Shown in pieces: positions 6,825 to 22,369 of a stretch of 35,356 bases of DNA. How positions within the stretch are numbered: the stretch's first letter is position 1; every line of letters begins with the position of its first letter. Location of the stretch: positions 1 through 35,356 of the forward strand of contig MNWP01000007.1 in assembly GCA_001872575.1 (NCBI GenBank), in the 5' to 3' direction. The DNA comes from Candidatus Peregrinibacteria bacterium CG1_02_54_53. GTDB taxonomy: Bacteria; Patescibacteriota; Gracilibacteria; Peribacterales; Peribacteraceae. The position numbers were made by a program, and so were the translations under genes. The notes under the pieces were generated by a model, which was not told the DNA's origin, searched no databases, and worked only from the letters and a program-made list of their open reading frames with translations.

Positions 6825-7025
6825 TCACGAGGATTTCAGAGGGCAGGGACGATCGCCGTACGAACAGAACACACAGCAATCTCCGTCCTTCGCTTTGATC
6901 ATGGCCTTGCAGTTCCTGCAGACGTAGAACGGCATGCAGGCACCCGTGGGAAGTGTCGATTGCTGCCCATGTCCGCACTTGGGACATGTGAGCGTTGCCT
7001 GCAGAGGGTTGGGGGTTTTGATCAT
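6825..7025 (-). CDS. GDCCVxC-domain small Cys-rich protein
   Basis: A 66-residue protein with two zinc-ribbon CxxC pairs (CPKC at 14-17, CRNC at 36-39) and the block GDCCVFCSYGDRPCP near the C-terminus. That block defines the GDCCVxC (seleno)protein family, often found near mercury-resistance genes, where selenocysteine can replace one cysteine; here all positions are ordinary TGC/TGT codons. The ATG overlaps the stop of the upstream glutaredoxin (TGATG), so the two are one operon. A role in thiol-based metal handling is inferred from family context. Biochemical function is unproven. Confidence 0.75.
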   Translation of the reverse strand: MIKTPNPLQATLTCPKCGHGQQSTLPTGACMPFYVCRNCKAMIKAKDGDCCVFCSYGDRPCPLKSS

Positions 7026-7270
7026 CAGGAGAGTTTTAGGAGTGCCATTGCATCGTCGAACCCGACGGCGACCTGCTGTTTCGGTGTGCCCTTATCGATC
7101 ACAGTGACGGGAACCGATGTGCCGCCGTTGGTGGCTTCCTGCATAACATTGAAGTCCTTCTCCGATGTTGTGACGTCGTGTGCGACGTATGCAATCTTCT
7201 TCTCCTGCAGAACGGCCTTCAGTTGCTTGCAGTACCCACAGGTGGGGGTCGTGTAGAGATCGATGGACAT
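7025..7270 (-). CDS. glutaredoxin-like protein
   Basis: An 81-residue glutaredoxin/NrdH-type protein: MSIDLYTTPTCGYCKQLKAV with active-site CGYC at residues 11-14, and the cis-proline TSVPVTVI motif at about 51-58 followed by VAVGFDDAMALL. It likely takes electrons from the divergently transcribed thioredoxin reductase or another flavoprotein. It is first in an operon with the GDCCVxC gene. Upstream there is a -10-like TATGCT at 7305-7300, 22 bp from the palindrome at 7328-7341, and the transcript would start near 7293 with leader CATTCTTTACCCCATCCCC. Confidence 0.85.
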   Translation of the reverse strand: MSIDLYTTPTCGYCKQLKAVLQEKKIAYVAHDVTTSEKDFNVMQEATNGGTSVPVTVIDKGTPKQQVAVGFDDAMALLKLS

Positions 7271-7299
7271 GGGGATGGGGTAAAGAATGAAGCACAGTG

Positions 7300-7369
7300 A
7301 GCATACGACGATAGCCAGCCCGATTCAGTAGCCTGGACTACAGTGCTCGAGCAGATTTTACTGAATACT
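7300..7369. promoter_or_regulatory. divergent promoters around GTA-N8-TAC palindrome
   Basis: The palindrome GTAGCCTGGACTAC lies at 7328-7341. On the minus side TATGCT (7305-7300) starts after 22 bp; on the plus side AATACT (7364-7369) starts after 22 bp. One operator thus sits about 41 bp upstream of both predicted transcript starts, serving the glutaredoxin operon and thioredoxin reductase. Confidence 0.7.
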
Positions 7370-7397
7370 CTTGCAAGTCTCCTCCCTCTCTTTCCCT

Positions 7398-8333
7398 ATG
7401 TACGATGTTCTCATCATTGGACTCGGCTGTGCCGGATATACCGCAGCTATTTACACAGCTCGCTACAAGCTTTCGACCTTCATCGTCGGTGCAGAGGAGG
7501 GTGGTCTCGGCATGACGGCCGCCGAAGTCGGCAACTGGCCAGGAAACATCGATATTACCGGTCCTGACCTCATGGAGAACTTCAAGAAGCATGCGCTCAG
7601 TTTCGATGCTGTCACGCACAAGATTGCACGGGTGAAATCCGTCGAGAAGATCGCGGGTGGCTTTCAACTCACCCTTGATAGCGGCGAAACGGCGCAAGGA
7701 AAGACCGTCATCTTCGCGATGGGCTCAAACAAGCGACACCTTGGTGCGCCCGGTGAGAAAGAATTCTCCGGCAAAGGTGTGACATACTGTGCAACCTGTG
7801 ACGCATTCTTCTACAAAGGAAAGGATGTCGCCGTTCTCGGCGGCGGTGATGCCGCCGTGGAAGGAGCGGCCATTGCCGCACAGGTTGCGAAGAAGGTCTA
7901 CCTTATTCACCGCAGGAATGAGTTCCGCGCGGAACCGTACTGGGTGGACAAAGTGAAAGCCAAGAAGAATGTCGTCTTCGTTCTGGAGCGCAATGTTGTT
8001 GAGATTCTCGGTGATCAAAAAGTGAAGGCTGTGAAGCTGGATAAGCCATTCGAAGGATCAGATACCATCACGCTCGACGGTGTCTTCATTGAGATTGGCG
8101 CCACTCCTGCAACGGAGATCCCGAAGACACTCGGTTGCGCAGTGGATGAGCGCGGATTCCTCACAGTGAATGGTGCACAGCAGACCACCGCTCCCGGTGT
8201 GTTCGGTGCCGGTGACATCACGACTGCAAGCAACTTCTTCGCACAGTTCACAACGGCGGCAGGCGAAGGGGCTGTCGCAGCCAACAGTGTATTCAATTAC
8301 GTGAGCACTGCGGGAGCAAAAATGCCTGCCTGA
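7398..8333 (+). CDS. trxB: thioredoxin reductase
   Basis: A 311-residue low-molecular-weight thioredoxin reductase that passes NADPH electrons through FAD to a dithiol partner. FAD motif GLGCAGYTA at 8-16, redox CATC at 131-134 in the usual YCATCDAFF setting, NADPH-binding GGGDAAVEGA at 148-157, and FGAGDI near the C-terminus. The first in-frame ATG at 7371 lies before the pyrimidine leader CTCCTCCCTCTCTTTCCCT; the ATG after it, giving MYDVLIIG, fits the family and is chosen. Position 11 in the FAD loop is Cys where Pro is usual. Probable partners are the two glutaredoxin-like proteins on either side. Promoter and palindrome lie just upstream. Confidence 0.92.
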   Translation: MYDVLIIGLGCAGYTAAIYTARYKLSTFIVGAEEGGLGMTAAEVGNWPGNIDITGPDLMENFKKHALSFDAVTHKIARVKSVEKIAGGFQLTLDSGETAQGKTVIFAMGSNKRHLGAPGEKEFSGKGVTYCATCDAFFYKGKDVAVLGGGDAAVEGAAIAAQVAKKVYLIHRRNEFRAEPYWVDKVKAKKNVVFVLERNVVEILGDQKVKAVKLDKPFEGSDTITLDGVFIEIGATPATEIPKTLGCAVDERGFLTVNGAQQTTAPGVFGAGDITTASNFFAQFTTAAGEGAVAANSVFNYVSTAGAKMPA

Positions 8334-8345
8334 CAGGCTCTGTCT

Positions 8346-8615
8346 TCATCGCACTTCTCCGAGGAGCCATTTCGCATCCTCCAGCCCTGCGGCAACTCTG
8401 ATGTGCTCGGTATCTTTATCGACGACAAGGACGGGGAAATGCACTATTCCCTCAGTGAGTACTTTCATACTTGTGAGTTCGGCGGCAGAGGACGACACAT
8501 CATGGCTGGAGAATGGTATTTTCCTGCGGCGTAACTCTTCCTTCAGCGTCTCGCAGTCAACGCAGTGCGGGAAGCAGTAGAGATCGAACGTGGGCATAGT
8601 CAGGCAGGTATGCAT
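8346..8615 (-). CDS. glutaredoxin-like protein, CVDC type
   Basis: An 89-residue thioredoxin-fold protein: FDLYCFPHCVDCETLKEEL gives a CVDC active site at about residues 18-21 with an additional Cys four residues before, and FPVLVV is the cis-proline strand. The ATG at 8615 is chosen because a -10-like TATGAT (8627-8622) ends 6 nt before it, the spacing expected of a leaderless transcript; MPTFDLYC at 8597 is the alternative. The palindrome at 8650-8663 lies 22 bp upstream of the -10. It is convergent with thioredoxin reductase (stops 12 bp apart), a likely electron donor. Confidence 0.75.
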   Translation of the reverse strand: MHTCLTMPTFDLYCFPHCVDCETLKEELRRRKIPFSSHDVSSSAAELTSMKVLTEGIVHFPVLVVDKDTEHIRVAAGLEDAKWLLGEVR

Positions 8616-8621
8616 GCCGAG

Positions 8622-8663
8622 ATCATAGGAAATGTACCAACACCCTGCAGTAGCCTAGGCTAC
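8622..8663 (-). promoter_or_regulatory. promoter with perfect palindrome GTAGCCTAGGCTAC
   Basis: Perfect 14-bp palindrome at 8650-8663, 22 bp, then TATGAT at 8627-8622 on the minus strand. Centre about -41.5 from the expected start at 8615, which is also the ATG of the CVDC glutaredoxin. This is the best copy of the repeated motif. Confidence 0.75.
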
Positions 8664-8665
8664 AG

Positions 8666-8694
8666 AAAAACGGGGCTCCTCTGCGGAGCCCCGT
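8666..8694 (-). terminator. terminator of the 11-codon micro-ORF
   Basis: A perfect 10-bp stem (ACGGGGCTCC at 8670-8679 with GGAGCCCCGT at 8685-8694) is followed on the minus strand by a run of five T. It begins 12 nt after the stop codon of the micro-ORF at 8707-8742. Confidence 0.9.
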
Positions 8695-8706
8695 GCGTGT
8701 GGCGTC

Positions 8707-8742
8707 TTAGCCACAGCCGCAACCACCTTTGCCGCCGAACAT
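8707..8742 (-). CDS. micro-ORF, 11-residue Gly/Cys peptide MFGGKGGCGCG
   Basis: ATG to TAA of 12 codons encoding MFGGKGGCGCG, below the size of ordinary gene calling. Evidence that it is a gene: leader TTCTATTTCTTTTCCCC directly before the ATG, the same element found before longer genes; a -10-like CATAGT at 8782-8777, 21 bp from a palindrome copy at 8804-8817; and a strong terminator 12 nt after the stop. The predicted transcript is about 105 nt. Six glycines, one lysine and two cysteines would suit a metal-ligand or thiol peptide, or a modified-peptide precursor. It could also be the reading frame of a dual-function small RNA. No homologue is known to me. Confidence 0.6.
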   Translation of the reverse strand: MFGGKGGCGCG

Positions 8743-8776
8743 AGAATGAAGGGGAAAAGAAATAGAACGTACGCAA

Positions 8777-8849
8777 CTATGTTCTCTCCATCAGGGCTGC
8801 GCAGTCGCCTACGCTACAACGTCGCGTGCGATGCTGTAGCCTGCGCTAC
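8777..8849. promoter_or_regulatory. two palindrome copies and micro-ORF promoter
   Basis: GTCGCCTACGCTAC (8804-8817, one mismatch to GTA-N8-TAC) lies 21 bp upstream of CATAGT (8782-8777, minus strand), serving the micro-ORF. A second copy GTAGCCTGCGCTAC (8836-8849) lies 33 bp before TATCCT at 8883-8888 on the plus strand, which ends 9 nt before the ATG of the HAD gene. The extra spacing is close to one helical turn. Confidence 0.6.
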
Positions 8850-8897
8850 CACGTCAGAATTACCTGCCTCAGCACAGGAGTGTATCCTCGAACTTGC

Positions 8898-9521
8898 ATG
8901 CATTCACATACCACTCTCCTCATTCTCGACTTCGACCATACGCTCTTCAACACGACGAAGCTCGTGCAGGCGGAAGCAGATTATTTCGCCAAGGCGTTCG
9001 GCATTCCAGAATCTGTGTTCCGGGAGACGCGGGAGAAGGTGAAGATCTGCTGCGTCGTCGAGGATGTCGATCGGTTCGTTCATCTATTACCGCATCCGGA
9101 TAAAGCCGCCCTCCACGAGGCATTACTTTACGTCATCCACACGGCGTCACCGTCATGTCTCTTTGCCGATGTATTGCCTTCTCTCGATGTTCTGAAAGGA
9201 AAAGCGGATATTCTTCTGGCAACGCACGGAGACCCCGAACTGCAGGAGGCGAAAATCCGCTCGAGCGGCATCCCGGCGGAATTCCCCTTCGCAATCACCC
9301 AAACGAAGAAGAGCGATATCATCGCGAGTCATATAAATGGGTACACGATGATTTTCTTAGTGGATGACAAACCGGAAAACCTGCGGGAAGCCAAAGAACA
9401 CTTTCCATCAGTCCGCACGTGCCTCATCACGCGTCCTGACGACCATCCATATAGCAAGTCTACGGTTGACTATCCCGGTGTCGATCACAGTGTCGCCACA
9501 CTGACGGATCTGAGACTGTGA
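8898..9521 (+). CDS. HAD-superfamily hydrolase
   Basis: A 207-residue haloacid-dehalogenase-type phosphatase: nucleophile motif LLILDFDHTLFNTT near the N-terminus (two Asp in DFDHT), motif II DILLATHG, and motif IV IFLVDDKPENLREAK near residue 155-170. The ATG at 8898 places the DxD motif about residue 12, as usual, and TATCCT 9 nt before it fits a leaderless start. The substrate is unknown; small phosphosugars or phosphopeptides are typical. Its stop overlaps the GTG start of the next gene (GTGA), so both are co-transcribed. Confidence 0.8.
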   Translation: MHSHTTLLILDFDHTLFNTTKLVQAEADYFAKAFGIPESVFRETREKVKICCVVEDVDRFVHLLPHPDKAALHEALLYVIHTASPSCLFADVLPSLDVLKGKADILLATHGDPELQEAKIRSSGIPAEFPFAITQTKKSDIIASHINGYTMIFLVDDKPENLREAKEHFPSVRTCLITRPDDHPYSKSTVDYPGVDHSVATLTDLRL

Positions 9522-10255
9522 ACATATTCGGGTACACTGTTCTCATGCCCGCGAACACCATTCTGTTGCTACCGCTCTTCGCGCTGATCGGAATACTGAA
9601 GTTCTCCGAAGACCGATTCTGTCTCGCTTGTCTACGCCATGGGAGGCTCCTTGTCTCCGCAGTGGTGGGCGTGGCATCCGTGAGCGTATTCACGCAACTC
9701 CTCAACGACACATACACCGCGGTCCATACTTCTCATCCACTCACGCTCGTCGGACTTCCCGCAGGATTCGTCGCGACGATCCTGCTCGCTCGCCACATTC
9801 ATGCGCACGAGGATGCACAGGGACAGTCGGAACTTCTGTTGCTTCTGCGAAGCAATGCCATTGCATCGGGAGTTTTGATCGGCATCGTTGCCGCGCTGAT
9901 GTCGGGGACGGATGCCCTACGGAACATCATCTTCATCATCGGACTCGTAGCCTACGACTTGCTCGACGACCTCTCGATGCATGCATTCCATCGAGAGTTA
10001 AGTGTCGGGACAGCGCGTACATGGATCGCTCGGCTCCTCGCCGTCCTTTCACCCTTCATCGGATGGATGCTGGCATCATTCCTGCCATTTTCGTCGGATG
10101 CCCATGCGGTGTTGTTGTCGCTCTTCGCAGGTGTGTACCTTGCCATTCTCGTCCGCGAAATCTTGCCACAGGATCGTGCGCTCGCTGTGCCATGGTTTCT
10201 GGCTGGTAGCGGGGTCGTCACAGGACTCTTCATTCTTCAGGTGGTGTTGTCATAG
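9518..10255 (+). CDS. integral membrane protein, possibly ZIP-like
   Basis: A 245-residue protein with about seven to eight hydrophobic segments (for example 9-27, 44-60, 75-91, 113-130, 133-146, 168-185, 194-211, 222-242). A histidine/acid loop, ARHIHAHEDAQGQSE (about 91-105), lies between segments 3 and 4. The last part, SLFAGVYLAILVREILPQD, recalls the C-terminal helices of ZIP divalent-metal transporters, but the diagnostic HExxH-type metal motifs of that family are not clear, so this is weak. GTG at 9518 overlaps the HAD stop; ATG at 9545 is the alternative. The gene ends at a hairpin shared with the opposing micro-ORF. Confidence 0.6.
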   Translation: MNIFGYTVLMPANTILLLPLFALIGILKFSEDRFCLACLRHGRLLVSAVVGVASVSVFTQLLNDTYTAVHTSHPLTLVGLPAGFVATILLARHIHAHEDAQGQSELLLLLRSNAIASGVLIGIVAALMSGTDALRNIIFIIGLVAYDLLDDLSMHAFHRELSVGTARTWIARLLAVLSPFIGWMLASFLPFSSDAHAVLLSLFAGVYLAILVREILPQDRALAVPWFLAGSGVVTGLFILQVVLS

Positions 10256-10285
10256 AAAAACGCCCCAACGTGCGAGTCAGGGCGT
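10256..10285 (-). terminator. terminator of the 7-codon micro-ORF
   Basis: On the minus strand ACGCCC and GGGCGT (arms 10280-10285 and 10260-10265, loop 14 nt) are followed by a T-run at 10260-10256. It lies 18 nt beyond the stop of the micro-ORF and directly after the stop of the opposing membrane-protein gene. Confidence 0.75.
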
Positions 10286-10303
10286 ACCGGGCGCATGTGC
10301 GCC

Positions 10304-10327
10304 TTAGCATTTTCCGCCACCGATCAT
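10304..10327 (-). CDS. micro-ORF, 7-residue peptide MIGGGKC
   Basis: ATG to TAA of eight codons encoding MIGGGKC. It is preceded by the leader CTATCCTTTCCCCAATCCTTT, by a -10-like CAGGAT (10363-10358) and by the palindrome at 10386-10399, 22 bp before that hexamer; a terminator follows. The arrangement copies that of the micro-ORF at 8707-8742, and the peptide shares its Gly-Gly-Lys-Cys character. A 97-codon frame in the same phase ends with these residues but runs back through the oxidoreductase gene and is rejected. The predicted RNA is about 95 nt. No coding gene follows on this strand, so a leader-peptide attenuator is unlikely. Confidence 0.5.
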   Translation of the reverse strand: MIGGGKC

Positions 10328-10357
10328 AAAGGATTGGGGAAAGGATAGAGGATCTTC

Positions 10358-10399
10358 ATCCTGCTCCGCTCTCTCAAGCGGTGCAGTAGCCTGGGCTAC
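10358..10399 (-). promoter_or_regulatory. palindrome and promoter of second micro-ORF
   Basis: GTAGCCTGGGCTAC at 10386-10399, then 22 bp, then CAGGAT at 10363-10358 on the minus strand. The -10 is weak (only A at position 2 and T at 6 fit). The palindrome overlaps the stop codon of the FAD oxidoreductase gene. Confidence 0.55.
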
Positions 10400-11856
10400 T
10401 CCACATTCACTCCGTCGATCTTGGTGTTTCTGTAGCCGAAAATCTTCCTGAGCCACCAGCGCGTGCGGGGATTGAGAAATTTGCTCCCGAGATATTCTCC
10501 TGCCGCTTGCTGATTGGCCATCGCAAGTGTGGGATAGACGTGCACCATCCGCGAGAGTTTCTTGAGGGGTATCTTCGCATTGTATGCCACGATCCACTCG
10601 TGGATCAGCTCTCCTGCATGCGGTCCCACGATCTGGCAGCCGAGCAACGTGTCTCCTGAGCCAAGAAGTAGCTTGATGAACCCCTTATTTTCGCTTTCCG
10701 CCAGTGCACGATCCTGATGCTCGAAGGGGAACATACTCATGTGGTACTCGATGTTCTTCTCCTTGGCTCTTGTCTCATTGAGACCGATGGAAGCCACTTC
10801 CGGATCCGTGAACGTTGTCCACGGGATAGCATCGAGGTTGATCTTGGCGGGGAAGTGCAGGAGCGCATTGCTCACGATGACCCCCGCCTCGTAGGAGGCA
10901 GAATGCGTGAATTGAAGGTGCCCCGTCACGTCCCCTGCGGCGTAGATGTGCTTCTGCGACGTTCGTAGTTTTGCGTCGGTCTTCACGTACCCCCGCTCGT
11001 CGAGCGCCACTCCGGCATTCTCCATTTTTAGCGTATCCGCATTGCTCGTGCGCCCGACAGCCACGAGGATCTCGTCGGCTCCGATGGTCTCTCGCTTCCC
11101 GTCTTTCTCGTACACGAGCACCTTCATACCGTTCTCATTCTTTATTTCTTTCATGGAGATGCCGAGCCGCAGATCCATGCCTTCTTGCTGGAAAACATTG
11201 CGCAGGACATCTTGCACGTCCCTGTCTTCTTTGCCGAGAATTTGGTCGCTGCGATTGGCGAGGATCACCTTCGTTCCGAGGCGCTGAAATGCCTGCGCCA
11301 GCTCGCAACCAATGGGCCCGGAACCGATGATGATCAGGCGTTTGGGTTGTTCCTTGAGATCGAAGACCGTTTCATTCGTGAGGAAACCCGCCTCCGCGAG
11401 GCCTGGGATGGGAACCGTCGCGGGACGCGAACCGACGCAAATAGCGATTTTCTTGGCGGAGATTTTCGTATCGCCAACATCAATTGTATGTGGATCGACA
11501 AAATGCGCCTGCGTCTCCGTCCAGACATCGCACCCCATCTTCCGGAATCGGTCGGGATTGTCCGTGTGTTCTTGAATCGTGTCGATAACCTTCCGGACAT
11601 GCTCCATCACTGCTGGGAAATTGATTTCCACCGCACCCGTGCTTATGCCGTACTCTTTGCCGCGCTGTGCGAGGTGCGCCACTTTCGCTGAGTGAATTAG
11701 CGTTTTGCTCGGCACACAACCATAATGCAAACAATCCCCGCCGAGGGTCTCTTTATCGATGAGCGCGACTTTCACGCCTAAGCGGGCGGCGACGCTTGCA
11801 AGAGACAACCCCGCCGAGCCGCCGCCGAGAACGATGAGATCGTGTGTGAATTCCAC
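10396..11856 (-). CDS. FAD-dependent pyridine nucleotide-disulfide oxidoreductase
   Basis: A 486-residue class I flavoprotein disulfide reductase. FAD motif GGGSAG at 11-16; redox pair Cys42/Cys47 in GGDCLHYGCVPSKTLIHSA; second Rossmann motif IIGSGPIGCELAQAFQRLG around 175-195; YAAGDVTG; and a dimerisation domain with HVYPTLAMANQQAAGEYLG. It resembles mercuric reductase and dihydrolipoamide dehydrogenase but has no N-terminal NmerA domain and no C-terminal CC pair, so mercury reduction is unlikely. The physiological disulfide is unknown. The start is a GTG at 11856, 6 nt after TACGAT (11868-11863), consistent with a leaderless message. Confidence 0.85.
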   Translation of the reverse strand: MEFTHDLIVLGGGSAGLSLASVAARLGVKVALIDKETLGGDCLHYGCVPSKTLIHSAKVAHLAQRGKEYGISTGAVEINFPAVMEHVRKVIDTIQEHTDNPDRFRKMGCDVWTETQAHFVDPHTIDVGDTKISAKKIAICVGSRPATVPIPGLAEAGFLTNETVFDLKEQPKRLIIIGSGPIGCELAQAFQRLGTKVILANRSDQILGKEDRDVQDVLRNVFQQEGMDLRLGISMKEIKNENGMKVLVYEKDGKRETIGADEILVAVGRTSNADTLKMENAGVALDERGYVKTDAKLRTSQKHIYAAGDVTGHLQFTHSASYEAGVIVSNALLHFPAKINLDAIPWTTFTDPEVASIGLNETRAKEKNIEYHMSMFPFEHQDRALAESENKGFIKLLLGSGDTLLGCQIVGPHAGELIHEWIVAYNAKIPLKKLSRMVHVYPTLAMANQQAAGEYLGSKFLNPRTRWWLRKIFGYRNTKIDGVNVE

Positions 11857-11862
11857 TCTTCC

Positions 11863-11942
11863 ATCGTACCGAGATTGGCGGGTACGGTCTACGCGGAGCT
11901 GTAGCCTGCACTACTGCGGGGACGCCGCGCTCGCAGTAGCGT
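11863..11942. promoter_or_regulatory. divergent promoters with GTA-N8-TAC palindrome
   Basis: GTAGCCTGCACTAC at 11901-11914. Plus strand: TAGCGT at 11937-11942 after 22 bp, then 8 nt to the ATG of glutamate dehydrogenase. Minus strand: TACGAT at 11868-11863 after 32 bp, then 6 nt to the GTG of the oxidoreductase. The same region carries CTACTGCG/CGCAGTAG (11911-11918 and 11931-11938), which could form a hairpin. Confidence 0.6.
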
Positions 11943-11950
11943 GTCTGTAT

Positions 11951-13294
11951 ATGGCGCATACATCCACTCCTTACGAGCGTTTCAAAACGCTCCTCGAAGA
12001 GACGATGAATCACTTGAAGCTCACTCTGGAGGAGAGGAAACCGTTTCTGGAACCGCAGCATATCCACCGGAAGGAACTGACTCTCACGCGTGATGATGGT
12101 TCGTCGGCGACGTTTCCCGCATTCCGCGTCCAGTACAACAACGCACGCGGCCCCTACAAAGGGGGCATCCGCTACCACCCGCTTGCCGATGAGGATGAGG
12201 TGAAAGCTCTGGCAGCCCTCATGGCTATCAAGACCGCCGTCGTGGGAATTCCTTTCGGTGGCGCGAAGGGCGGTATCCAGTGCGACCCGAAAGCACTGAG
12301 CAAGCGGGAACTTCAAGACCTCTCCCGTGCCTACGTCCGGGCGTTTAAGGATCACCTCAGTCCGGACATCGATGTGCCTGCTCCGGATGTGAACACGAAC
12401 CCCGATATCATGGCATGGATGCGCGATGAGTATGAGAAAATCACACGCACGTATGCACCGGCACTGATTACGGGAAAACCTCTCAGCTACGGCGGTTCGC
12501 TCGGACGCGACACCGCAACCGCGCGTGGAGGATTCTTCATCCTACAGGAATTCGTGAATCTGGAGGGAAAAGATGCGGATGATCTGCGCGTCGTGATCCA
12601 GGGGTTCGGCAATGCCGGAGCGAACATGGCGCATCTCCTGCACAATGCGGGCTATACCGTTATAGGACTATCGGATTCCCACGGCGGCATCTATTCCGAG
12701 GAGGGCTTGGATCCCGTCCGGATCGAGAAGTACAAGCACCGCACGGGTTCGATCACCGGTGAATACTGCGAGGGGTCGGTCTGCGATATCGACAAGATGA
12801 AGATGGACAACGTGCGAACCGTGACGAACGAGGAATTATTGGAACTCCCGTGTGACATTCTCATTCCCGCTGCGCTCGATAATGTCATTACGGAGAAGAA
12901 CGCCGGGCGCATCCGTGCGAAATACATACTTGAACTGGCGAACGGCCCAACGACGCCGGAAGCGGATGCGGCGCTGCGGAAGAAGGGCGTCACGCTCATC
13001 CCCGATGTGTTGATGAACGCAGGAGGCGTGACCGTCAGCTACTTCGAATGGACGCAGGGTCGCTCCGGTGAGCAATGGACGGCGGAGTACGTGGACAATG
13101 AACTCAAGCGCATCATGCTCGATGCTTTCCGTGCCGTGCGCAAGGAGGTGAGCCGGTCGGGGCTGACGTATCGGCAAGCCGCGTTCGTTCTCGGCGTCCG
13201 ACGGATGCTCGAGGCGATGCACGCGCGAGGCTGGATCAGCGATGCCACTGCCATAGCCGCCGGATCACGAGGACGGCGACGGTCATTTCGATGA
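11951..13294 (+). CDS. gdhA: glutamate dehydrogenase (Glu/Leu/Phe/Val dehydrogenase family)
   Basis: A 447-residue oxidoreductase interconverting glutamate with 2-oxoglutarate and ammonia. Substrate-binding GPYKGGIRYHP near residue 67-77, catalytic lysine region PFGGAKGGI near 101-109, dinucleotide-binding VVIQGFGNAGANMA near 215-228 and VIGLSDSHGGIYSE after it; the 2-oxo-acid pocket motif LELANGPTTPEA is present. The ATG at 11951 gives the family-typical N-terminus; an earlier in-frame start lies in the divergent gene. Cofactor preference is not decided. The last 59 bp overlap the opposing TVP38-like gene. Control by the palindrome at 11901-11914 would link nitrogen assimilation to the thiol-redox genes. 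Confidence 0.9.
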   Translation: MAHTSTPYERFKTLLEETMNHLKLTLEERKPFLEPQHIHRKELTLTRDDGSSATFPAFRVQYNNARGPYKGGIRYHPLADEDEVKALAALMAIKTAVVGIPFGGAKGGIQCDPKALSKRELQDLSRAYVRAFKDHLSPDIDVPAPDVNTNPDIMAWMRDEYEKITRTYAPALITGKPLSYGGSLGRDTATARGGFFILQEFVNLEGKDADDLRVVIQGFGNAGANMAHLLHNAGYTVIGLSDSHGGIYSEEGLDPVRIEKYKHRTGSITGEYCEGSVCDIDKMKMDNVRTVTNEELLELPCDILIPAALDNVITEKNAGRIRAKYILELANGPTTPEADAALRKKGVTLIPDVLMNAGGVTVSYFEWTQGRSGEQWTAEYVDNELKRIMLDAFRAVRKEVSRSGLTYRQAAFVLGVRRMLEAMHARGWISDATAIAAGSRGRRRSFR

Positions 13295-13859
13295 AGACGA
13301 GAGCGGATGAGAGGAACGCCCCTCTACCAATTTCTCCTCCCGCATAGCTCCATACAAAGGCGAACGGGATGATGCCGATCAGCGATGCGATTGCATACGT
13401 TGAAAAGGACAGATGCTTGAGGAGACCGAGCGCGAAACTTGTGACATCAACGGGCAGGATCATGCGGAGAATGACGATGCCCGCAAACCCTATGTCCTTA
13501 GGAATCTTTTGCTCCAAGCGGTCCACTATTTCGAGAGAGGTGACTTTTTCAAGATAGGGTCTGCCGAGCCGCGCGATTTGGAATGCGATGAGGCATCCGG
13601 TCCACCAGCCGAGAATGCTGAGAACAGCCGTCATCCATACGCCGAAGACCCGTGCCGCCAGCGGCAGGAGCGGCAGAGACGAGAATGGCAAGAATACGAC
13701 CGATGTCATGAGCAGGATGATGTAGAGAACTGCTCCCATGAACGGGTGTGAGCGGATGGTTTGTTCGATCATCGTAAAATCCCAGCGGTATTCCCAGACA
13801 CCGATTCCCAGAATCGCGAGAATGACGATGCCGAGGAGGATCTTCTGCCAACGTCGCAT
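13236..13859 (-). CDS. TVP38/TMEM64-family (VTT domain) membrane protein
   Basis: A 207-residue inner-membrane protein with about five to six hydrophobic segments. The VTT signature is visible: FLPFSSLPLLPLAARVFG in the first re-entrant part and GIVILRMILPVDVTSFALGLL, where Arg and Pro are the conserved pair. Members transport or scramble lipids and some are linked to selenite or mercury handling; the substrate here is unknown. The start MRRWQKILLG at 13859 is preferred to upstream in-frame codons because it begins directly before the first membrane segment. Its 3' end overlaps that of glutamate dehydrogenase by 59 bp. Confidence 0.8.
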   Translation of the reverse strand: MRRWQKILLGIVILAILGIGVWEYRWDFTMIEQTIRSHPFMGAVLYIILLMTSVVFLPFSSLPLLPLAARVFGVWMTAVLSILGWWTGCLIAFQIARLGRPYLEKVTSLEIVDRLEQKIPKDIGFAGIVILRMILPVDVTSFALGLLKHLSFSTYAIASLIGIIPFAFVWSYAGGEIGRGAFLSSALVFIEMTVAVLVIRRLWQWHR

Positions 13860-13929
13860 GTCTGTGCATTGTAGCGATTCCAATCCTATTTCCCATGACA
13901 TCACTATCGCACAGCGCAAGCGGAATCTA

Positions 13930-13965
13930 TTGCATTGGAATTATAACATATGTTATATATTCAAT
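13930..13965 (+). promoter_or_regulatory. promoter and palindromic operator of mercury-module repressor
   Basis: TTGCAT (13930-13935), 17-bp spacer, TTATAT (13953-13958), then 7 nt to the ATG, so the transcript is probably leaderless. The perfect palindrome ATAACATATGTTAT (13943-13956) covers the spacer and -10, and a second half-site AATATGTTAT overlaps the start codon. This is the expected place for an ArsR-type repressor. Confidence 0.7.
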
Positions 13966-14268
13966 ATGTTATCCGAATCTCATCGGCAATTCCTCAAGAC
14001 GCTCGGCAACCCGAAGCGGATGGAGCTTATGCTCCTGCTCATGCAACGGCCGATGACGGTCACGGAACTCATGGAGAAGAGCGACATGGAGCAGTCGACA
14101 GTCTCCCATCACCTCAAGCGGTTGAAGCTCTGCCAGTTCGTGAAGAACAAAGTGAACGGAAAAGAGCGCATCTACTCGGTGAATGAAGAGACAATAGAGC
14201 CTCTCTTTAGGCTCATGAACAAGCATGTGAAGAAGTATTGCCAGCGGCTCTGTTGCCAACCTTCCTGA
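13966..14268 (+). CDS. ArsR/SmtB-family repressor, probably mercury-responsive
   Basis: A 100-residue winged-helix protein: MLSESHRQFLKTLGNPKRME, then TVTELMEKSDMEQSTVSHHLKRLK with the recognition helix at about 43-55, and a beta-wing GKERIYSV. Cysteines are at 56 and in a C-terminal cluster (92, 96, 97: YCQRLCCQPS), a possible metal site unlike the classic ELCVCDL site. It is followed by a Hg-type gene set on the same strand, so it most likely plays the role MerR plays elsewhere; ArsR-type mercury sensors are known in actinobacteria. The start follows its own operator and -10 by 7 nt. Confidence 0.8.
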   Translation: MLSESHRQFLKTLGNPKRMELMLLLMQRPMTVTELMEKSDMEQSTVSHHLKRLKLCQFVKNKVNGKERIYSVNEETIEPLFRLMNKHVKKYCQRLCCQPS

Positions 14269-14299
14269 CGTCTTTTTTTATTTTCTTCTCCCCTTTTCT

Positions 14300-14551
14300 A
14301 TGACCACCTTCGAGGTCATCTCCGCCGACTGTCCTCTATGCAGGACAACTCTCAAGACGCTGCGCTCCGCCATCGAAAAGCGAGGATGCGGCTGCAAGGT
14401 CGTCGAGCATCGTTGCCAAGGCGATGAGTGCTGCGAGCCTGCAAAGAGCCACGACGTGAAAGCGGTGCCCACCGTCATTCGTGACGGCAAGACCGTGCAC
14501 GTCGGGAAGCTCACCCAGCAGGAGGCTGAAGCACTTCTGCCATCTCGATGA
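14300..14551 (+). CDS. Cys-rich thioredoxin-fold protein of mercury module
   Basis: An 83-residue thioredoxin-like protein with CPLC at 11-14, cis-proline AVPTVI at 55-60, and five extra cysteines at 30, 32, 39, 44 and 45. No signal peptide. Overlapping the merF start by ATGA and lying between the repressor and MerF, it may deliver Hg(II) or reduce thiol adducts in the cytosol, taking the place of MerP or NmerA, neither of which is present. That role is inference. It has the pyrimidine leader ATTTTCTTCTCCCCTTTTCT. Confidence 0.7.
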   Translation: MTTFEVISADCPLCRTTLKTLRSAIEKRGCGCKVVEHRCQGDECCEPAKSHDVKAVPTVIRDGKTVHVGKLTQQEAEALLPSR

Positions 14552-14763
14552 ACCGGCAACCGTCCAAACGAGGTTTCTCTGCGGCTGCCATTGGCACTGT
14601 CGCAATTGCCATCTGCTGCTTCACTTCCATCCTTGTCGTCACCCTCGGAACAGTTGGTTTGAGTGCGCTTACACCGTATCTGGATTATGTGCTGTGGCCT
14701 GTGCTCGTCCTTCTCCTCCTCGTGACAATCCTCGCCTACAGGAAGTGGAAGCATTATTCCTGA
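14548..14763 (+). CDS. merF: mercuric ion uptake protein MerF
   Basis: A 71-residue protein with two membrane helices (about 10-33 and 45-64). AIAICCFTSILVVTLGTVGL followed by SALTPYLDYVLWPVLVLLL matches the MerF pattern (CCFTPVLVILLGVVGLSALTGYLDYV) almost position by position, with the vicinal Cys23-Cys24 pair in helix 1 that takes up Hg(II). The second C-terminal cysteine pair of classical MerF is absent: the protein ends RKWKHYS. It is translationally coupled to the thioredoxin-fold gene. Confidence 0.85.
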   Translation: MNRQPSKRGFSAAAIGTVAIAICCFTSILVVTLGTVGLSALTPYLDYVLWPVLVLLLLVTILAYRKWKHYS

Positions 14764-14767
14764 TCCC

Positions 14768-15274
14768 GTGCACACACTGCATCTCATCATCAATGGCATT
14801 GGCCAAGCACTCCGTTCCACGAGGAGGAAGTTTCTCTTCCTCGGTCTCACCTTGCTCATGTTCCTCATTCTCTTCTCGACTCCCATCCTCACCATTCAGG
14901 GTAATAGTCTTGCATTCCAGCTTTCCATTACTCGAGGGACGGATGTTGCCATTGTCCTCTTGCTTTCGTCGCTCCTGAGTCTGGTTGTTACTCTCCAACT
15001 TGAACGCAAGCGATGCCAGAAAGGTTGTCACATAAACACGGCAACGATGGCCGGCATGGGAAGCATGGGTGTTGCTGGGACTGCCTTCACGGGCCTGCTT
15101 GCGACAGGAGCGTGTTCTTCATGTCTGGTGGGTATTTTGGGGTTCGTGGGCATCGGGAGTGCCGTTGCCTTCACGATCCTCGATTATCGCTGGTACATCG
15201 TGTGGGCGGTTATAGTCCTTTCGGTTTTATTCATTATGCTGACCGCAAAAAACATCGGTCGTACCCTCCGCTGA
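14768..15274 (+). CDS. Cys-containing membrane protein of mercury module
   Basis: A 168-residue protein with four hydrophobic segments (about 23-44, 58-79, 98-127, 139-160). It has RKRCQKGCH after segment 2 and TGACSSCLVGILGF in segment 3, i.e. two cysteine pairs that could pass metal across the membrane. I do not recognise the family. Its position, 4 nt after merF and 3 nt before merA with a GTG start, suggests a second uptake component of the mercury module. Confidence 0.65.
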   Translation: MHTLHLIINGIGQALRSTRRKFLFLGLTLLMFLILFSTPILTIQGNSLAFQLSITRGTDVAIVLLLSSLLSLVVTLQLERKRCQKGCHINTATMAGMGSMGVAGTAFTGLLATGACSSCLVGILGFVGIGSAVAFTILDYRWYIVWAVIVLSVLFIMLTAKNIGRTLR

Positions 15275-15277
15275 TCT

Positions 15278-16681
15278 ATGCAGACTTTCGATCTGATCAT
15301 CATCGGCGGCGGCGCAGGAGCATTCGGTGCGGCGATTCGTGCTGATGGACTGAACGCCAAGACTGCGATGATCAACAAGGGTCTTCCGCTCGGAGGCACG
15401 TGCGTGAACGTGGGCTGCGTCCCGAGCAAGACCCTTATTCATGCAGGAACAGTTCTCCACCAAGCGCGGAACCACGGCATCCCCGGCATCGAGCTTTCTA
15501 TGAAGCGATTTGATTTCCAGAAGGTCGTGCAAGATGAACTCTCACTCGTGAAACGGATGCAGGAGGAGAAATACCAGAAAGTATTGAAGCACCTGAAGCA
15601 TGTCACATTCTTCGATGGGAAAGCCCGTTTTGTCTCACCGCACGAAGTGGAGGCAAATGGGGAAACTCTGCGTGGGGAGAAGTTCATCATCGCCACCGGC
15701 TCTACCGCGACCGTCCCCCCGATTGAAGGTATCCATGAGGTGGGCTACGTAACGCACGTCGAAGCCCTGAAACTGGAGAAACAGCCAAAAGAGCTCATCG
15801 TCGTCGGTGCAGGGGCGGTAGGATTGGAGTTCGCACAAATGTTCGCCCGTTTCGGCACGAAGGTCACGATCCTCCAGCACAGCGGAAGCATCTTCCGTCC
15901 AGGGGAGAAGGTCGTGGTGGAACGATTGCAGGAAGTGCTCAGAAAGGAAGGGATTGAGATCATCCTCAGTGCCGAGGTGAAGAGTGCGCGCAGGCAAAAG
16001 GATAGGAAGGTGCTCACCTATGTTGTCGAGGGTAAGCAACAGGAACTTGCAGGCGATGCAATTCTCCTCGCCATTGGCAAGATACCGAACACAGCGGGTT
16101 TGGGTTTGGAAAAAGCGGGAGTGGTGACGGACAAGAAGCAGGCCATCGTGACGAAGCCTTTCCTCCAAACGTCGCAGCCCCATATCTACGCGGCGGGAGA
16201 TGTCACCAATCTCCCCCTTCGTCTGGAGCCGACGGCAGGAAACGAAGGGACGCTCGCAGCGGAGAATGCACTCACGGGTTCGGAGAAGAGCATCGACTAT
16301 CGTACCGTTCCCTACACGATCTTCACCGATCCAGAGCTGGCGGGAGTGGGTTACACAGAGGAGGAATACATCAAGGAGACCGGTCGCTGCGACTGCCGTG
16401 CGCTCAACTTCGCCGACGTGCCGAAGGCGGTAATCCTGCGCCAGACAGACGGCATCATCAAGATGATCATTGCCCCTGAGACGAAGCGAATTGTCGGTAT
16501 TCACATCCTCGCACCCCATGCAGGAGAACTGATTGCCGAGGCGATGATGCTGATTCGGAACAAGAACACGATTGATGATGTGACAGGTTCACTTCCGATG
16601 TTCCCAACACTGGCGGAATCGATCAAGATCGTTGCACTATCCTTTACGAGGGATATCTCGAAGCTGAGTTGTTGCGTGTGA
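15278..16681 (+). CDS. merA: mercuric reductase, core form without NmerA
   Basis: A 467-residue flavoenzyme reducing Hg(II) to Hg(0) with NAD(P)H. FAD motif GGGAGAFGA at 10-18, redox pair Cys42/Cys47 in GGTCVNVGCVPSKTLIHAG, IVVGAGAVGLEFAQMFARFG near 170-190, YAAGDVTN, and, decisively, the C-terminal pair Cys465-Cys466 in KLSCCV that binds Hg(II) in MerA. The N-terminal metal-binding domain is missing, as in several shorter MerA proteins. It is last in the operon and convergent with the MerT-like gene. The second FAD disulfide reductase in the window (10396-11856) lacks the CC tail. Confidence 0.93.
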   Translation: MQTFDLIIIGGGAGAFGAAIRADGLNAKTAMINKGLPLGGTCVNVGCVPSKTLIHAGTVLHQARNHGIPGIELSMKRFDFQKVVQDELSLVKRMQEEKYQKVLKHLKHVTFFDGKARFVSPHEVEANGETLRGEKFIIATGSTATVPPIEGIHEVGYVTHVEALKLEKQPKELIVVGAGAVGLEFAQMFARFGTKVTILQHSGSIFRPGEKVVVERLQEVLRKEGIEIILSAEVKSARRQKDRKVLTYVVEGKQQELAGDAILLAIGKIPNTAGLGLEKAGVVTDKKQAIVTKPFLQTSQPHIYAAGDVTNLPLRLEPTAGNEGTLAAENALTGSEKSIDYRTVPYTIFTDPELAGVGYTEEEYIKETGRCDCRALNFADVPKAVILRQTDGIIKMIIAPETKRIVGIHILAPHAGELIAEAMMLIRNKNTIDDVTGSLPMFPTLAESIKIVALSFTRDISKLSCCV

Positions 16682-16718
16682 GACAGTCGGAGAGGTTCGT
16701 GCAGAACCAGCATGAGCT

Positions 16719-17084
16719 TTACGACCAAATCTTCAAAAATTTCCCGATGTACTCCACCACGACGTAAAGGAAGAAGAAATACCCGGCGACTGCCACGAAC
16801 AGGGAGATGAGAACGGTGTTGATGATCTCGTTTCGGTGACGCTTGGCTTGATCGAGCGTGCAGACACCGCGCTTCCGGAAGTACAGAATGAGGCTGACGA
16901 TCAGAAACACAAGGCCGACGCCCCGGAACACCCACTTGTAATCTCCGTAGAGCGTATCTGCGAGGGATCCGGCGAAGCTCGCAGTGCTTAAACCCAGAAG
17001 CACAAGAATGACGGGGCTGAGGCAGCAGAGGGACGCCGCAACTACCGGCACACCGATGATGCGGAACATGTCTCGAATTTTCAT
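16719..17084 (-). CDS. MerT-like mercuric transport protein
   Basis: A 121-residue membrane protein with three hydrophobic segments. VVAASLCCLSPVILVLLGLS carries the vicinal Cys19-Cys20 pair of MerT helix 1; the loop has one further cysteine (RKRGVCTLDQ), where classical MerT has two. The ATG at 17084 follows a pyrimidine leader (CTTTCCTTTTCTTTCTTCGC) and is far inside a longer frame that is antisense-like. It is on the opposite strand to the merF-merA operon, with stops 37 bp apart, so it must have its own promoter. Confidence 0.75.
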   Translation of the reverse strand: MKIRDMFRIIGVPVVAASLCCLSPVILVLLGLSTASFAGSLADTLYGDYKWVFRGVGLVFLIVSLILYFRKRGVCTLDQAKRHRNEIINTVLISLFVAVAGYFFFLYVVVEYIGKFLKIWS

Positions 17085-17112
17085 GGTGGCGAAGAAAGAA
17101 AAGGAAAGGTCA

Positions 17113-18519
17113 TCATCGACTATACAACTCCGTCTCAGGATACTGCGCCACCCACGAGAACCAGAAGCCATAGAGAGGAATGATTTCCTCTCCTTTCTCT
17201 GAGTTTTGGAAAGTGACGACTTGAGTTTCGGCGTCGTATGCAACTTCGATTTCCACGCCACCGATGTCGTCATTGATTGTCCCGTTCTTCTGAAGAGTCG
17301 TGAGCGGATACGCCTTCGCCTTGCCGTCCACAACGATGCCATAGACGAGAGCTTTTGCATGCAGCCGCGTATCGGTTTTTCGTACAGGGAAATAGGTGCC
17401 GCTGTCCCGCTCATAGCCCTCGTAGGGATCGCGGCCGTAATCGCGACGATGCCCGGTGTCCGTGCTGAGGATCCGCGCAGTCGGATATTGCTCCTGCACC
17501 GTCGAAAACCGTACGACATCGCTGCGGACGGCCTTCAGCTTCTCCCCCGTGAGTGGCCCCACTACGGCCTGCGCTGTCGCCTGACTCCAGAGAGAGTCGG
17601 TCAGACGATCGTACATAAGGAGATTGCTTTGGTAGAGGAAGCCGCTCACGCCGAACTCCGCAATTCCTTTACTGATCGTTCGGTCGTACACGATCGCCGT
17701 CGCACAGAGCGGACAGTACGTGACTGTCACGGCCTTCCCACCGACGGTATCGTTCACGATCTCGTGCCAGTTGAGAATGCGGAAGGGGTAGAAGCGGGTG
17801 TCGCTGCCGACTGTGAGCAGCAGACCAAGATCATCGTCGGCAAGGAATGTCGCATCACTGACACTCACAAATTTCGGCGCATCAATAGAAGGAATACCGT
17901 CCTTCGACGGTCCGCCGCTGAGGATATCCGTGAGTGGGATGAGGTGCTTCACCTGCCCCTGATACCAATCCGAAAGCAGTGACGGAACGGGAGATGAGCC
18001 GCCATTGCAGGCGAGCGAGCCGGAGCCGCAGGAGGGAGTGGTGTTTGCCGATTGCATTTGTACATTGTCGGTCAAATCCTGAACATGCTCATTTAATTCC
18101 TCTTCCGTAAGCGGCCCGTTCTTCTTGAAAATGATCTCTCCATCCGTATTCAGGAAGATCGTTGTCGGCTGCGTGAACACACCAAATTTTTTGGAGAGAT
18201 CCGCTTTTGGGTCGAGAAGAGTCTCGAACGTATAGCCGCCGTTTTCCCAATAACTCTTTACGGTCGACAGGGGTTCTTGAAGATTCACGCCGATAACGGC
18301 GATTTCGGGATGTTCCCGTGCGACCTTCTCGAAGAGCGGCAGCTCCTCCTTACAAAAGGGGCACCATGCCGCCCAGAAGTTCACGATGGCGGGTTTCCCC
18401 GCGATTGCTGCTTCCAGCGTCGTCTCTGTCCCATCGAGGAGAGCAACGCTGTCCATGCTCCCTGCAGAGTTACATGCAGAAAGAGAGAGAAGGCCAATCA
18501 TAAGGAGCAAATGTTTCAT
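17113..18519 (-). CDS. TlpA-like thioredoxin lipoprotein fused to DUF3179 domain
   Basis: A 468-residue envelope protein. Signal sequence MKHLLLMIGLLSLSAC with lipobox LSAC, Cys16 being lipidated. Residues about 22-155 form a TlpA/ResA-type domain with AAWCPFC (Cys53, Cys56) and the cis-Pro strand TQPTTIF. After a Gly/Ser/Cys linker (SCGSGSLACNGGSS), residues about 175-468 are a DUF3179 domain with its TYCPLCATAIVYDR motif and a second C-terminal repeat half. Both domains carry CxxC, so the fusion suggests DUF3179 is a thiol or metal substrate of the thioredoxin domain. The start codon directly abuts a terminator T-run. Confidence 0.85.
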   Translation of the reverse strand: MKHLLLMIGLLSLSACNSAGSMDSVALLDGTETTLEAAIAGKPAIVNFWAAWCPFCKEELPLFEKVAREHPEIAVIGVNLQEPLSTVKSYWENGGYTFETLLDPKADLSKKFGVFTQPTTIFLNTDGEIIFKKNGPLTEEELNEHVQDLTDNVQMQSANTTPSCGSGSLACNGGSSPVPSLLSDWYQGQVKHLIPLTDILSGGPSKDGIPSIDAPKFVSVSDATFLADDDLGLLLTVGSDTRFYPFRILNWHEIVNDTVGGKAVTVTYCPLCATAIVYDRTISKGIAEFGVSGFLYQSNLLMYDRLTDSLWSQATAQAVVGPLTGEKLKAVRSDVVRFSTVQEQYPTARILSTDTGHRRDYGRDPYEGYERDSGTYFPVRKTDTRLHAKALVYGIVVDGKAKAYPLTTLQKNGTINDDIGGVEIEVAYDAETQVVTFQNSEKGEEIIPLYGFWFSWVAQYPETELYSR

Positions 18520-18548
18520 AAAAAATGGAGAGGCTCAAAGAGCCCCTC
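18520..18548 (-). terminator. terminator or attenuator abutting next start codon
   Basis: GAGGGGCTC / GAGCCTCTC (one G-T pair, 3-nt loop) then CATTTTTT on the minus strand. It ends the small Cys-rich gene at 18553-18699 and its last T is the base before the ATG of the TlpA-DUF3179 gene, so read-through control is possible. Confidence 0.75.
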
Positions 18549-18552
18549 GTCT

Positions 18553-18699
18553 TCACATTTTCTTGCCTGCAGCGCAGGCACTGCACTTTCCACTACATGC
18601 TCCACCCGTGGAGGAGCAGACTTGGCCAGTGGCTCCGCAGCCGGAGCAAGTGCCTTCTTTCATCGCCGCGCCGCAGGCGCATTTGTCACCGTTATCCAT
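18553..18699 (-). CDS. metallothionein-like 48-residue Cys-rich protein
   Basis: A 48-residue protein with eight cysteines (7, 9, 18, 21, 28, 35, 39, 42) in CxC and CxxC pairs: MDNGDKCACGAAMKEGTC..., CSGCG, CSGKCSACAAGKKM. There is no signal peptide and the composition is Gly/Ala/Ser/Lys, as in small metal-sequestering proteins. It resembles bacterial metallothioneins in Cys density, though not by clear alignment; a zinc-ribbon fragment is the alternative. The leader TTCTATTTCTTCCCCC precedes ATG, and TATTCT at 18732-18727 is a likely -10, giving a 5' leader of about 20 nt. Confidence 0.75.
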   Translation of the reverse strand: MDNGDKCACGAAMKEGTCSGCGATGQVCSSTGGACSGKCSACAAGKKM

Positions 18700-18743
18700 A
18701 AAAAATTGGGGGAAGAAATAGAAGACAGAATAGGAATATTCTA

Positions 18744-19439: not shown

Positions 19440-19443
19440 ATGG

Positions 19444-20031: not shown

Positions 20032-20055
20032 CAATGGGAAAGAAAATACAAAGCA

Positions 20056-20559: not shown

Positions 20560-20584
20560 GGGAGATTGGGAAAGATACGATGCA

Positions 20585-20626
20585 ACTGTACCGATCCCCA
20601 CCCTGATGTTCAGTAGTCTAGGCTAC
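20585..20626 (-). promoter_or_regulatory. promoter with palindrome GTAGTCTAGGCTAC
   Basis: Palindrome at 20613-20626, 22 bp, then TACAGT at 20590-20585 on the minus strand. It is 16 bp from the stop of the CRP/FNR-type regulator gene and 54 bp upstream of the secreted-protein ATG. The architecture is identical to that of the copies at 7.3-11.9 kb. Confidence 0.7.
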
Positions 20627-20641
20627 AGCATCTTCTTTCCT

Positions 20642-21292
20642 CTATTTCACAGTGATGCGTCCCTTTTCATCAATATTGATATCTCCCTGAAGTTTTAGGA
20701 GCTTCAGCGTGCGCGTGACGGTGACACGGTTGAGGCCCGTCAATTCGCCTATTTTCTCATGCGAAAGGGCAAGTGGCGCATCTTTAGAAAGTATTGCGAA
20801 GGGGTTTCGCTTCTTCCGGCTATATCTGCGGAGCTCACCAAGAACCTTTTCCAAAGCACTGCCAGTGTCGAGTTTCAGCTTCTGCTCGTAGTCGTGGAGC
20901 CGCGAAGAGAGTTTCTGCAACAGTCGAGTCAGAACTTCTGGGTGCTTCGCAATGACTTTCTGAAAATCATCGGGGGTCAGGATACAAATGCGGCTTCCCG
21001 GCAGAGCTTCGGCATAGTGTGTTGCCCCCTCTGCGTTGGGAAGGAAGTTTCCAAAGAGGCTCCCGGGGCCGAGCACATCGAAGATCGTGCGCTTTCCGTC
21101 GCGGGAATGATACAGAACGACCTCGCCTTCTTTGAGCAGGAAAACATTACGATCCAATCCATCATGCGGACTGTAGAGGTGCATGGGAGAGGTACAGCGG
21201 TGATCCTGCACTTTCTCAGCGATCTGCATGATCTCCATATCGGGGATGCCCTCGAAGATATCGATATGGGAGATGTACCAAGCTTTTTCCAT
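20642..21292 (-). CDS. CRP/FNR-family regulator with NtcA-like recognition helix
   Basis: A 216-residue transcription factor: cyclic-nucleotide-type beta-barrel (residues about 10-115; VFLLKEGEVVLYHSRDGKRT, GPGSLFGNF), dimer helix, then a winged helix with LSHEKIGELTGLNRVTVTRTLKLLK. The recognition helix RVTVTR matches that of cyanobacterial NtcA (TRVTVTR) rather than CRP (RETVGR) or FNR (E..SR). NtcA binds GTA-N8-TAC, and the window holds seven such palindromes. There are no FNR-type N-terminal cysteines. The effector is unknown; NtcA itself responds to 2-oxoglutarate. I prefer ATG at 21292, 6 nt after TATTCT (21304-21299), over GTG at 21298. Confidence 0.85.
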   Translation of the reverse strand: MEKAWYISHIDIFEGIPDMEIMQIAEKVQDHRCTSPMHLYSPHDGLDRNVFLLKEGEVVLYHSRDGKRTIFDVLGPGSLFGNFLPNAEGATHYAEALPGSRICILTPDDFQKVIAKHPEVLTRLLQKLSSRLHDYEQKLKLDTGSALEKVLGELRRYSRKKRNPFAILSKDAPLALSHEKIGELTGLNRVTVTRTLKLLKLQGDINIDEKGRITVK

Positions 21293-21340
21293 GTCCACAG
21301 AATACCTGCTCAGTTCTATGAAGTCATTGGTATGTGTCCC

Positions 21341-21973: not shown

Positions 21974-22369
21974 ACGTGCTCAAAGTAACGCATATCCTCT
22001 TTCAACGACATCATCCTCGAAGGCGACGAAAGGAAAAACGACGGGGTGATTCAGGACTCCAAGACAGGTGAAAATGGCATGCTAAACTATAATAAGTAGT
22101 ATATGTCAGCTGCCACTTGAAAAAGGCTTCTATAAGCCAAAATACTGAATTTGTCCAGCATGAGACACACCCCTGTTGTACTGTCTCATTTGTCTCATTT
22201 GACCGACAGACCCTTTGGCCTTCGCACACTCAAAATGACCCCCTCAAAAACCTTGTCTGGGACTCAACTATTTTGTTGTCAGACCCCGTCGTTCTGCCAC
22301 TACGTGCGCGTGCTTATATGTCCGCCTGCTGAAGCCGAAAAGTGAAATTTCGCGGACAGTCTCATGCGA
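21974..22369. other. AT-richer intergenic region
   Basis: No convincing gene. It contains a small minus-strand hairpin with T-run at 22120-22138 (GGCTT/AAGCC), possibly the distal terminator of the long CDF-ending operon, and a short tandem repeat TGTCTCATT (two copies near 22184-22201). Base composition is lower in GC than its surroundings. Confidence 0.4.

Follow-up and report, generated by a model that had tools for sequence, protein, structure and literature searches.

Gly/Cys micro-genes with a common promoter geometry in Candidatus Peribacteria: candidate gene-encoded thiols or metal ligands beside redox enzymes

NtcA class II promoters have been described in which a GTAN8TAC site centred at -41.5 is combined with a TAN3T -10 box (PMC3898017), and the mer operon of Thermus thermophilus includes a bacillithiol-synthesis gene (PMC8261052). 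The DNA analysed here (35,356 nucleotides, hereafter the window) forms one contig of a genome of 1.37 Mb, the relatives of which belong to Candidatus Peribacteria. Its promoter layout equals the one published for NtcA-type class II promoters (PMC3898017) and, with the spacing taken from the sequence, it presents the elements of CRP-family class II activation, i.e., a palindrome near -41.5, a -10 box and a CRP-family protein. These promoters precede redox genes as well as very short ORFs, one of which encodes the 11-residue peptide MFGGKGGCGCG.

The first-pass annotation had proposed that this peptide is framed by a palindrome, a -10 box, a pyrimidine leader, an ATG, a TAA and a 10-bp terminator. 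Every one of these parts was found on the minus strand, where the complete unit, from operator to terminator, runs from 8817 to 8666:

8836..8849, minus strand: upstream operator-like palindrome GTAGCGCAGGCTAC of the MFGGKGGCGCG unit
8804..8817, minus strand: operator GTAGCGTAGGCGAC of the unit, centred at about -41.5 relative to the predicted start
8776..8781, minus strand: -10 box CATAGT, 22 nt past the operator
8743..8769, minus strand: predicted 5′ leader, with pyrimidines at 20 of its last 22 nt
8707..8742, minus strand: ORF MFGGKGGCGCG plus TAA, the ATG at 8742 and the end of the TAA at 8707
8666..8694, minus strand: intrinsic terminator, a 10-bp hairpin (8694-8670) followed by T5

The operator departs from the palindrome by a single mismatch (GAC in place of TAC). 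Transcription is predicted from the sequence to start at about 8769, and the resulting transcript of 106 nt agrees with the approximately 105 nt claimed beforehand. With its own promoter and terminator, arranged in a geometry common to the sister units described below, MFGGKGGCGCG has indeed the organization of a complete, stand-alone gene. A conserved tail of a longer protein was considered and ruled out: the frame 5′ of the ATG is closed in the related genome G006, and the ATG in the window occupies the standard start position.

Palindromes of the GTAG-N6-CTAC type are a recurrent element of the window. Searching both strands for GTAGCNNAGGCTAC with up to two mismatches, we counted 13, against 1.0 expected. 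In all the promoters tabulated here, those of micro-genes and of enzyme genes alike, a -10-like hexamer lies exactly 22 nt after the operator and the ATG falls at 66-75 nt counted from the operator start; the conditions on the -10 box and on the leader with its ATG are satisfied by 0.16% of random positions. Besides the operator of the 11-mer, the tabulated ones are:

7328..7341: shared operator of thioredoxin reductase (plus strand) and glutaredoxin 2 (minus strand)
8650..8663, minus strand: operator GTAGCCTAGGCTAC of glutaredoxin 1, with the -10 box TATGAT at 8627-8622
10386..10399, minus strand: operator GTAGCCCAGGCTAC of the second micro-gene, with the -10 box CAGGAT at 10363-10358
20613..20626, minus strand: operator of an exported Met/His-rich protein, adjoining the regulator gene, with TACAGT as -10 box after 22 nt

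Another operator, at 11901, sits between the genes for an FAD oxidoreductase and a glutamate dehydrogenase. In that region (11901-11950, operator GTAGTGCAGGCTAC) the hexamer TAGCGT is found 22 nt downstream, right before the start of the glutamate dehydrogenase, whose transcript from this promoter would be almost leaderless. In a relative, a rhodanese is among the genes with predicted operator promoters.

The genes around the micro-genes constitute a redox and mercury island, in which the following stand out:

7025..7270, minus strand: glutaredoxin-like protein 2
7398..8333, plus strand: thioredoxin reductase-like flavoprotein
8349..8597, minus strand: glutaredoxin-like protein 1, starting MPTFDLYC, with an in-frame upstream ATG at 8615
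15278-16681: mercury(II) reductase MerA, above the curated cutoff

An ArsR-family regulator is encoded upstream of MerA on the same strand, and the island further holds DsbD, a thioredoxin-like protein and a redoxin. The adjacency of MFGGKGGCGCG to glutaredoxins and thioredoxin reductase, pointed out in the earlier reading, was confirmed: the reductase and the two glutaredoxins adjoin the 11-mer, are among the predicted operator targets in the window and, having the operator type in common with it, are probably co-regulated, which would make them candidate recyclers of the peptide. In G006, a glutaredoxin paralog adjoins a protein that, judged by eye, resembles MerF.

The candidate cognate regulator is encoded in the same window:

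20642..21298, minus strand: CRP-family regulator with the recognition helix GLNRVTVTR

This protein is the probable regulator of the GTAG-N6-CTAC set, and its orthologs adjoin such operators in G057, G006, G064, G046, G003 and G048. Furthermore, more distant CRP homologs (33-40% identity) carry the helix GLTRETVTK and are associated with TGTRA-N6-TYACA sites, so that helix and site change in parallel between regulator clades, which supports the pairing of regulator and operator. The likeness to NtcA-type regulons comprises GTAN8TAC sites at -41.5, a -10 box after 22 nt and a helix with RVTVTR; unlike them, the regulator of the window has redox genes and micro-peptides as predicted targets and falls far under the family cutoff. 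An identity as NtcA was consequently rejected (30.1 bits with TIGR03697, against a curated cutoff of 244.95). The pairing of operator and regulator predicts a CRP-family redox regulon in Peribacteria. Adjoining the CRP-like gene, the exported Met/His-rich protein (20559 to about 20060, minus strand), which also occurs in L087, L089, L090 and L105, is accompanied by the same operator in five genomes and belongs to no Pfam family.

A second micro-gene, whose operator was given above, lies on the same strand:

10304..10327, minus strand: ORF MIGGGKC plus TAA, read as ATG ATC GGT GGC GGA AAA TGC TAA
10255..10285, minus strand: its terminator

Its architecture matches that of the 11-mer unit in operator, -10 box, pyrimidine leader (19 pyrimidines in 22 nt, next to the 20 of MFGGKGGCGCG) and terminator. 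G057 retains it, differing by one synonymous change, and the changes in the terminator stem preserve pairing. These two units bear on the idea that MFGGKGGCGCG is an attenuator leader peptide through which the supply of glycine and cysteine would control glutaredoxin 1. Such a mechanism would call for what is seen upstream of glutaredoxin 1, where a run of Gly and Cys codons and then a terminator lie on its strand; yet glutaredoxin 1 possesses a separate operator and -10 box past that terminator, and no gene was found downstream of the sister MIGGGKC on its strand. We therefore rejected this very improbable explanation.

The micro-genes are not confined to the window. A six-frame search of 74 family genomes for M-x-(G/C)-G-G-(K/H/N/Q)-C gave four matches: both the window genome and G057 contain MIGGGKC, G043 contains MEGGGHCRVGGCSCS and G069 contains MLCGGHC. 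The G043 and G069 units adjoin diverged CRP homologs and have the same promoter geometry as the window units (GTGATCTGTCTCAC-N22-TATATT with the ATG at 74 for MEGGGHCRVGGCSCS, and GTAATTAGGCTTAC-N22-CATAGT with the ATG at 72 for MLCGGHC), redox genes being absent from their neighbourhood. When the search was extended to all 353 genomes of the class with MxGGG(K/H)C, six matches were obtained, of which four are the micro-genes and two, MKCGGKC in G203 and MLCGGKC in G127, are chance matches located within unrelated genes.

Could these units be chance intergenic ORFs, their conserved features being due to neighbouring promoters and terminators? ORFs of 11 codons are common by chance, and the exact unit is rare, both of which would fit. 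On the other side, the promoter geometry is present at every one of the MxGGG(K/H)C micro-ORFs, and when 646 kb were scanned blindly for Gly/Cys ORFs of 5-20 codons accompanied by a leader and a terminator, five units came out, i.e., MFGGKGGCGCG and MIGGGKC in two genomes each and MEGGGHCRVGGCSCS, and nothing else. Reversed sequence and 20 shuffled copies gave none, controls that are somewhat post hoc given that the scan criteria and the motif were set after the first units were known. Overall, chance appears to be a quite improbable origin.

The way genes start here points to translation of the micro-ORFs. Of 60 long ORFs, 18 have a leader with at least 17 pyrimidines in 22 nt, compared with 3.6% of all ATGs; in the three stretches of contig that were measured, about 1% of ATGs have one as pyrimidine-rich as that of the 11-mer. 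Many gene starts, in the window as well as in L077 and L078, show a pyrimidine-rich leader and no obvious Shine-Dalgarno sequence, and such leaders often contain CTTTCCCC some 10 nt upstream of the ATG; the motif, or the pyrimidine leader itself, is possibly a lineage-specific signal for translation initiation.

An alternative at the RNA level is a role as small regulatory RNAs: the CRP-like regulator would control transcripts of about 105 nt whose ORFs are either incidental or part of a dual-function RNA. The transcripts would be short and separately terminated, as expected for such molecules, and in the G006 copy of the 11-mer two changes past the stop codon turn A-U into G-U pairs, a small hairpin being kept. 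Nevertheless, the RNA 5′ of the terminators folds no better than its shuffled versions in the two window units (z of -0.96 and -0.95), so no structure beyond the terminator is apparent, and no Rfam family was matched in the window. Moreover, the position of the ATG and the leader match those of protein genes, and independent units are alike in the Gly/Cys composition of their peptides while they are unlike in RNA sequence. We regard the regulatory-RNA explanation as unlikely, though deserving of some weight. Translation of the micro-genes is well supported, if indirectly, and on sequence grounds translated micro-genes are far likelier than chance ORFs, an attenuator or a pure small RNA. Summed over the possible functions, MFGGKGGCGCG is probably a real translated micro-gene and one of a set, a judgement that we hold with good, though not full, confidence.

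Larger Cys-rich products of the same surroundings extend the picture:

18553..18699, minus strand: 48-residue Cys-rich mini-protein MDNGDKCACG..., with a pyrimidine leader and a terminator

This protein, with nine cysteines, is flanked by the DsbD gene and a redoxin/DUF3179 gene. Its ortholog in G057 has undergone five synonymous and three non-synonymous codon changes with every cysteine retained. At the same end of the DsbD gene stand MGNGGTCGCGSNKCAACGGCLTCGTCTCGTKK in G006 and MDKCPSCGNEPCSCGK in G064, preceded by leaders with 25 and 24 pyrimidines in 25 nt, respectively. The DsbD-linked mini-proteins have -10-like boxes of their own, yet no operator was recognised for them; in G003, a perfect operator (GTAGCCGCGGCTAC) lies upstream of the Cys-rich mini-protein MENDRCLCGTALCEACGRCSTCETCTCR... 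Across relatives the sizes range from 16 to 48 residues. The reading frame, the start and the cysteines are constant in spite of this drift in length and sequence, so that selection would act on the peptide and not on the RNA. Homologous Cys-rich mini-proteins of the form RCLCGTxLCxxCxRCxxCxxCTCR were also observed in G048 (L088, about 904, minus strand) and G003 (L133, about 10190), close to putative sites of the regulator.

Regarding its distribution, the exact 11-mer is present in three of the 353 class genomes. Absence from relatives had been named in the first-pass annotation as an argument against a gene; it holds for the exact 11-mer in the other 350, and it does not hold for the type of unit, considering that sister micro-genes of other sequence with the same promoter geometry exist in other relatives, which makes the MFGGKGGCGCG unit a member of a set and no one-off. 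Among viral contigs the pattern of the 11-mer had no match, and plasmids gave just weak short matches, one of them annotated trxB.

Positions 8244-9105 are identical between the window and G057 inside a region of 90.8% identity, which suggests that this block was probably exchanged recently. Because the block is shared by G000 and G057, few changes are left and codon statistics on MFGGKGGCGCG are uninformative; each of the two window micro-ORFs offers one synonymous change. Codon-level conservation, the check proposed in the first-pass annotation, comes down for the 11-mer to the single synonymous change in 36 nt of the G006 copy, and is hardly a test. In that copy the ORF and the terminator are kept, and a repeat with 11 copies in that genome ends immediately 5′ of the ATG; a recent loss of the promoter is probable, and little can be learned about function from this copy. 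G006 was accordingly rejected as independent support for the promoter, as the repeat abuts the ATG. The repeat itself (L108 1-139, contig C77 of G006), inserted exactly before the ATG of the 11-mer, also has seven copies in G044, mostly at contig ends as in G006, and codes for the first part of a protein that contains GLDLHKK, which we take to be reminiscent of IS110-type transposases; the 84 residues available have no Pfam match. On a larger scale, identity between the window (7061-22300) and G057 switches from stretch to stretch between 98-100% and about 70-80%, a mosaic that suggests recent exchange of the redox/mercury island between Peribacteria lineages.

Altogether, a three-step mechanism can be proposed. 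Firstly, and with strong sequence evidence, the CRP-like regulator would bind GTAG-N6-CTAC centred at -41.5 and activate, in the class II manner, short transcripts that each have a terminator of their own. Secondly, with good indirect evidence, each transcript would be translated from the ATG behind a pyrimidine leader of the protein-gene type. Finally, the peptide thiols may provide a buffer against soft metals, for example Hg(II), or against disulfide stress, and would be kept reduced by the co-regulated thioredoxin reductase and glutaredoxins. The peptides would in this way be genetically encoded equivalents of low-molecular-weight thiols, or else metallothionein-like ligands in miniature, with the bacillithiol gene of the T. 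thermophilus mer operon (PMC8261052) as a precedent. That Gly/Cys micro-genes of 7-15 residues, driven by the regulator at least in part together with redox enzymes, have a thiol or metal-ligand role is a tentative proposal, to which we give slightly less than even credence. The thiol/metal-ligand step is the weakest of the three, since the G043 and G069 peptides are without redox neighbours.

The same two peptides would suit micro-genes that are translated for another purpose, be it signalling, binding to a protein partner or adjusting the regulator. Cysteine is however the constant residue across peptides and mini-proteins, and redox enzymes are what the regulator is predicted to target in the window, so that we consider such other roles rather doubtful. 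The first-pass annotation had also raised a precursor for modification (RiPP). A small product rich in Cys and Gly would be in keeping with it, but none of the scanned window proteins was recognised as a modifying enzyme and the 7-residue sister is too short to leave room for a leader; this suggestion was dropped as hardly credible. A thiol cofactor or a metal ligand, as had likewise been put forward, stays our best functional guess for MFGGKGGCGCG.

From a methodological perspective, gene finders skip ORFs of 7-15 codons and could in this way overlook an entire class of genes. Promoter geometry, leader and terminator expose such genes from sequence alone, providing a recipe for finding more.

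Compared with described systems, attenuators with Cys-rich leader peptides have in common with the micro-genes a very short ORF that contains Cys codons and has a terminator after it, whereas no gene here relies on read-through. Metallothioneins such as SmtA and BmtA are also small Cys-rich products with CxC/CxxC motifs, a likeness clearest in the relatives of 32-48 residues, which are Cys-rich with CxC at both 32 and 48 residues; the 11-mer has two cysteines and the 7-mer one. Unlike metallothioneins, the micro-peptides comprise 7-15 residues with one to four cysteines and match no family: neither the 11-mer (scanned as a doubled sequence due to the length limit) nor the 32- and 48-residue relatives matched a metallothionein or any other model in Pfam, nor did the two relatives in NCBIfam. 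It is nonetheless plausible that the function is that of a metallothionein or of a small thiol, in micro-peptides that no curated family covers. With glutathione, bacillithiol and mycothiol they have in common the Gly/Cys make-up, the glutaredoxin and thioredoxin reductase partners and the mercury context; those thiols, however, are made by dedicated enzymes, while MFGGKGGCGCG is a genomic ORF that would be read by the ribosome. It is conceivable, although we think it unlikely, that this lineage encodes its working thiols directly as ribosomally made Gly/Cys peptides of 7-15 residues, each with its own promoter and recycled by thioredoxin reductase and dedicated glutaredoxins, instead of enzymatic glutathione or bacillithiol. 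If the peptides were working thiols or metal ligands, a lineage of reduced genomes would have swapped an enzymatic pathway for a few dozen bases of DNA.
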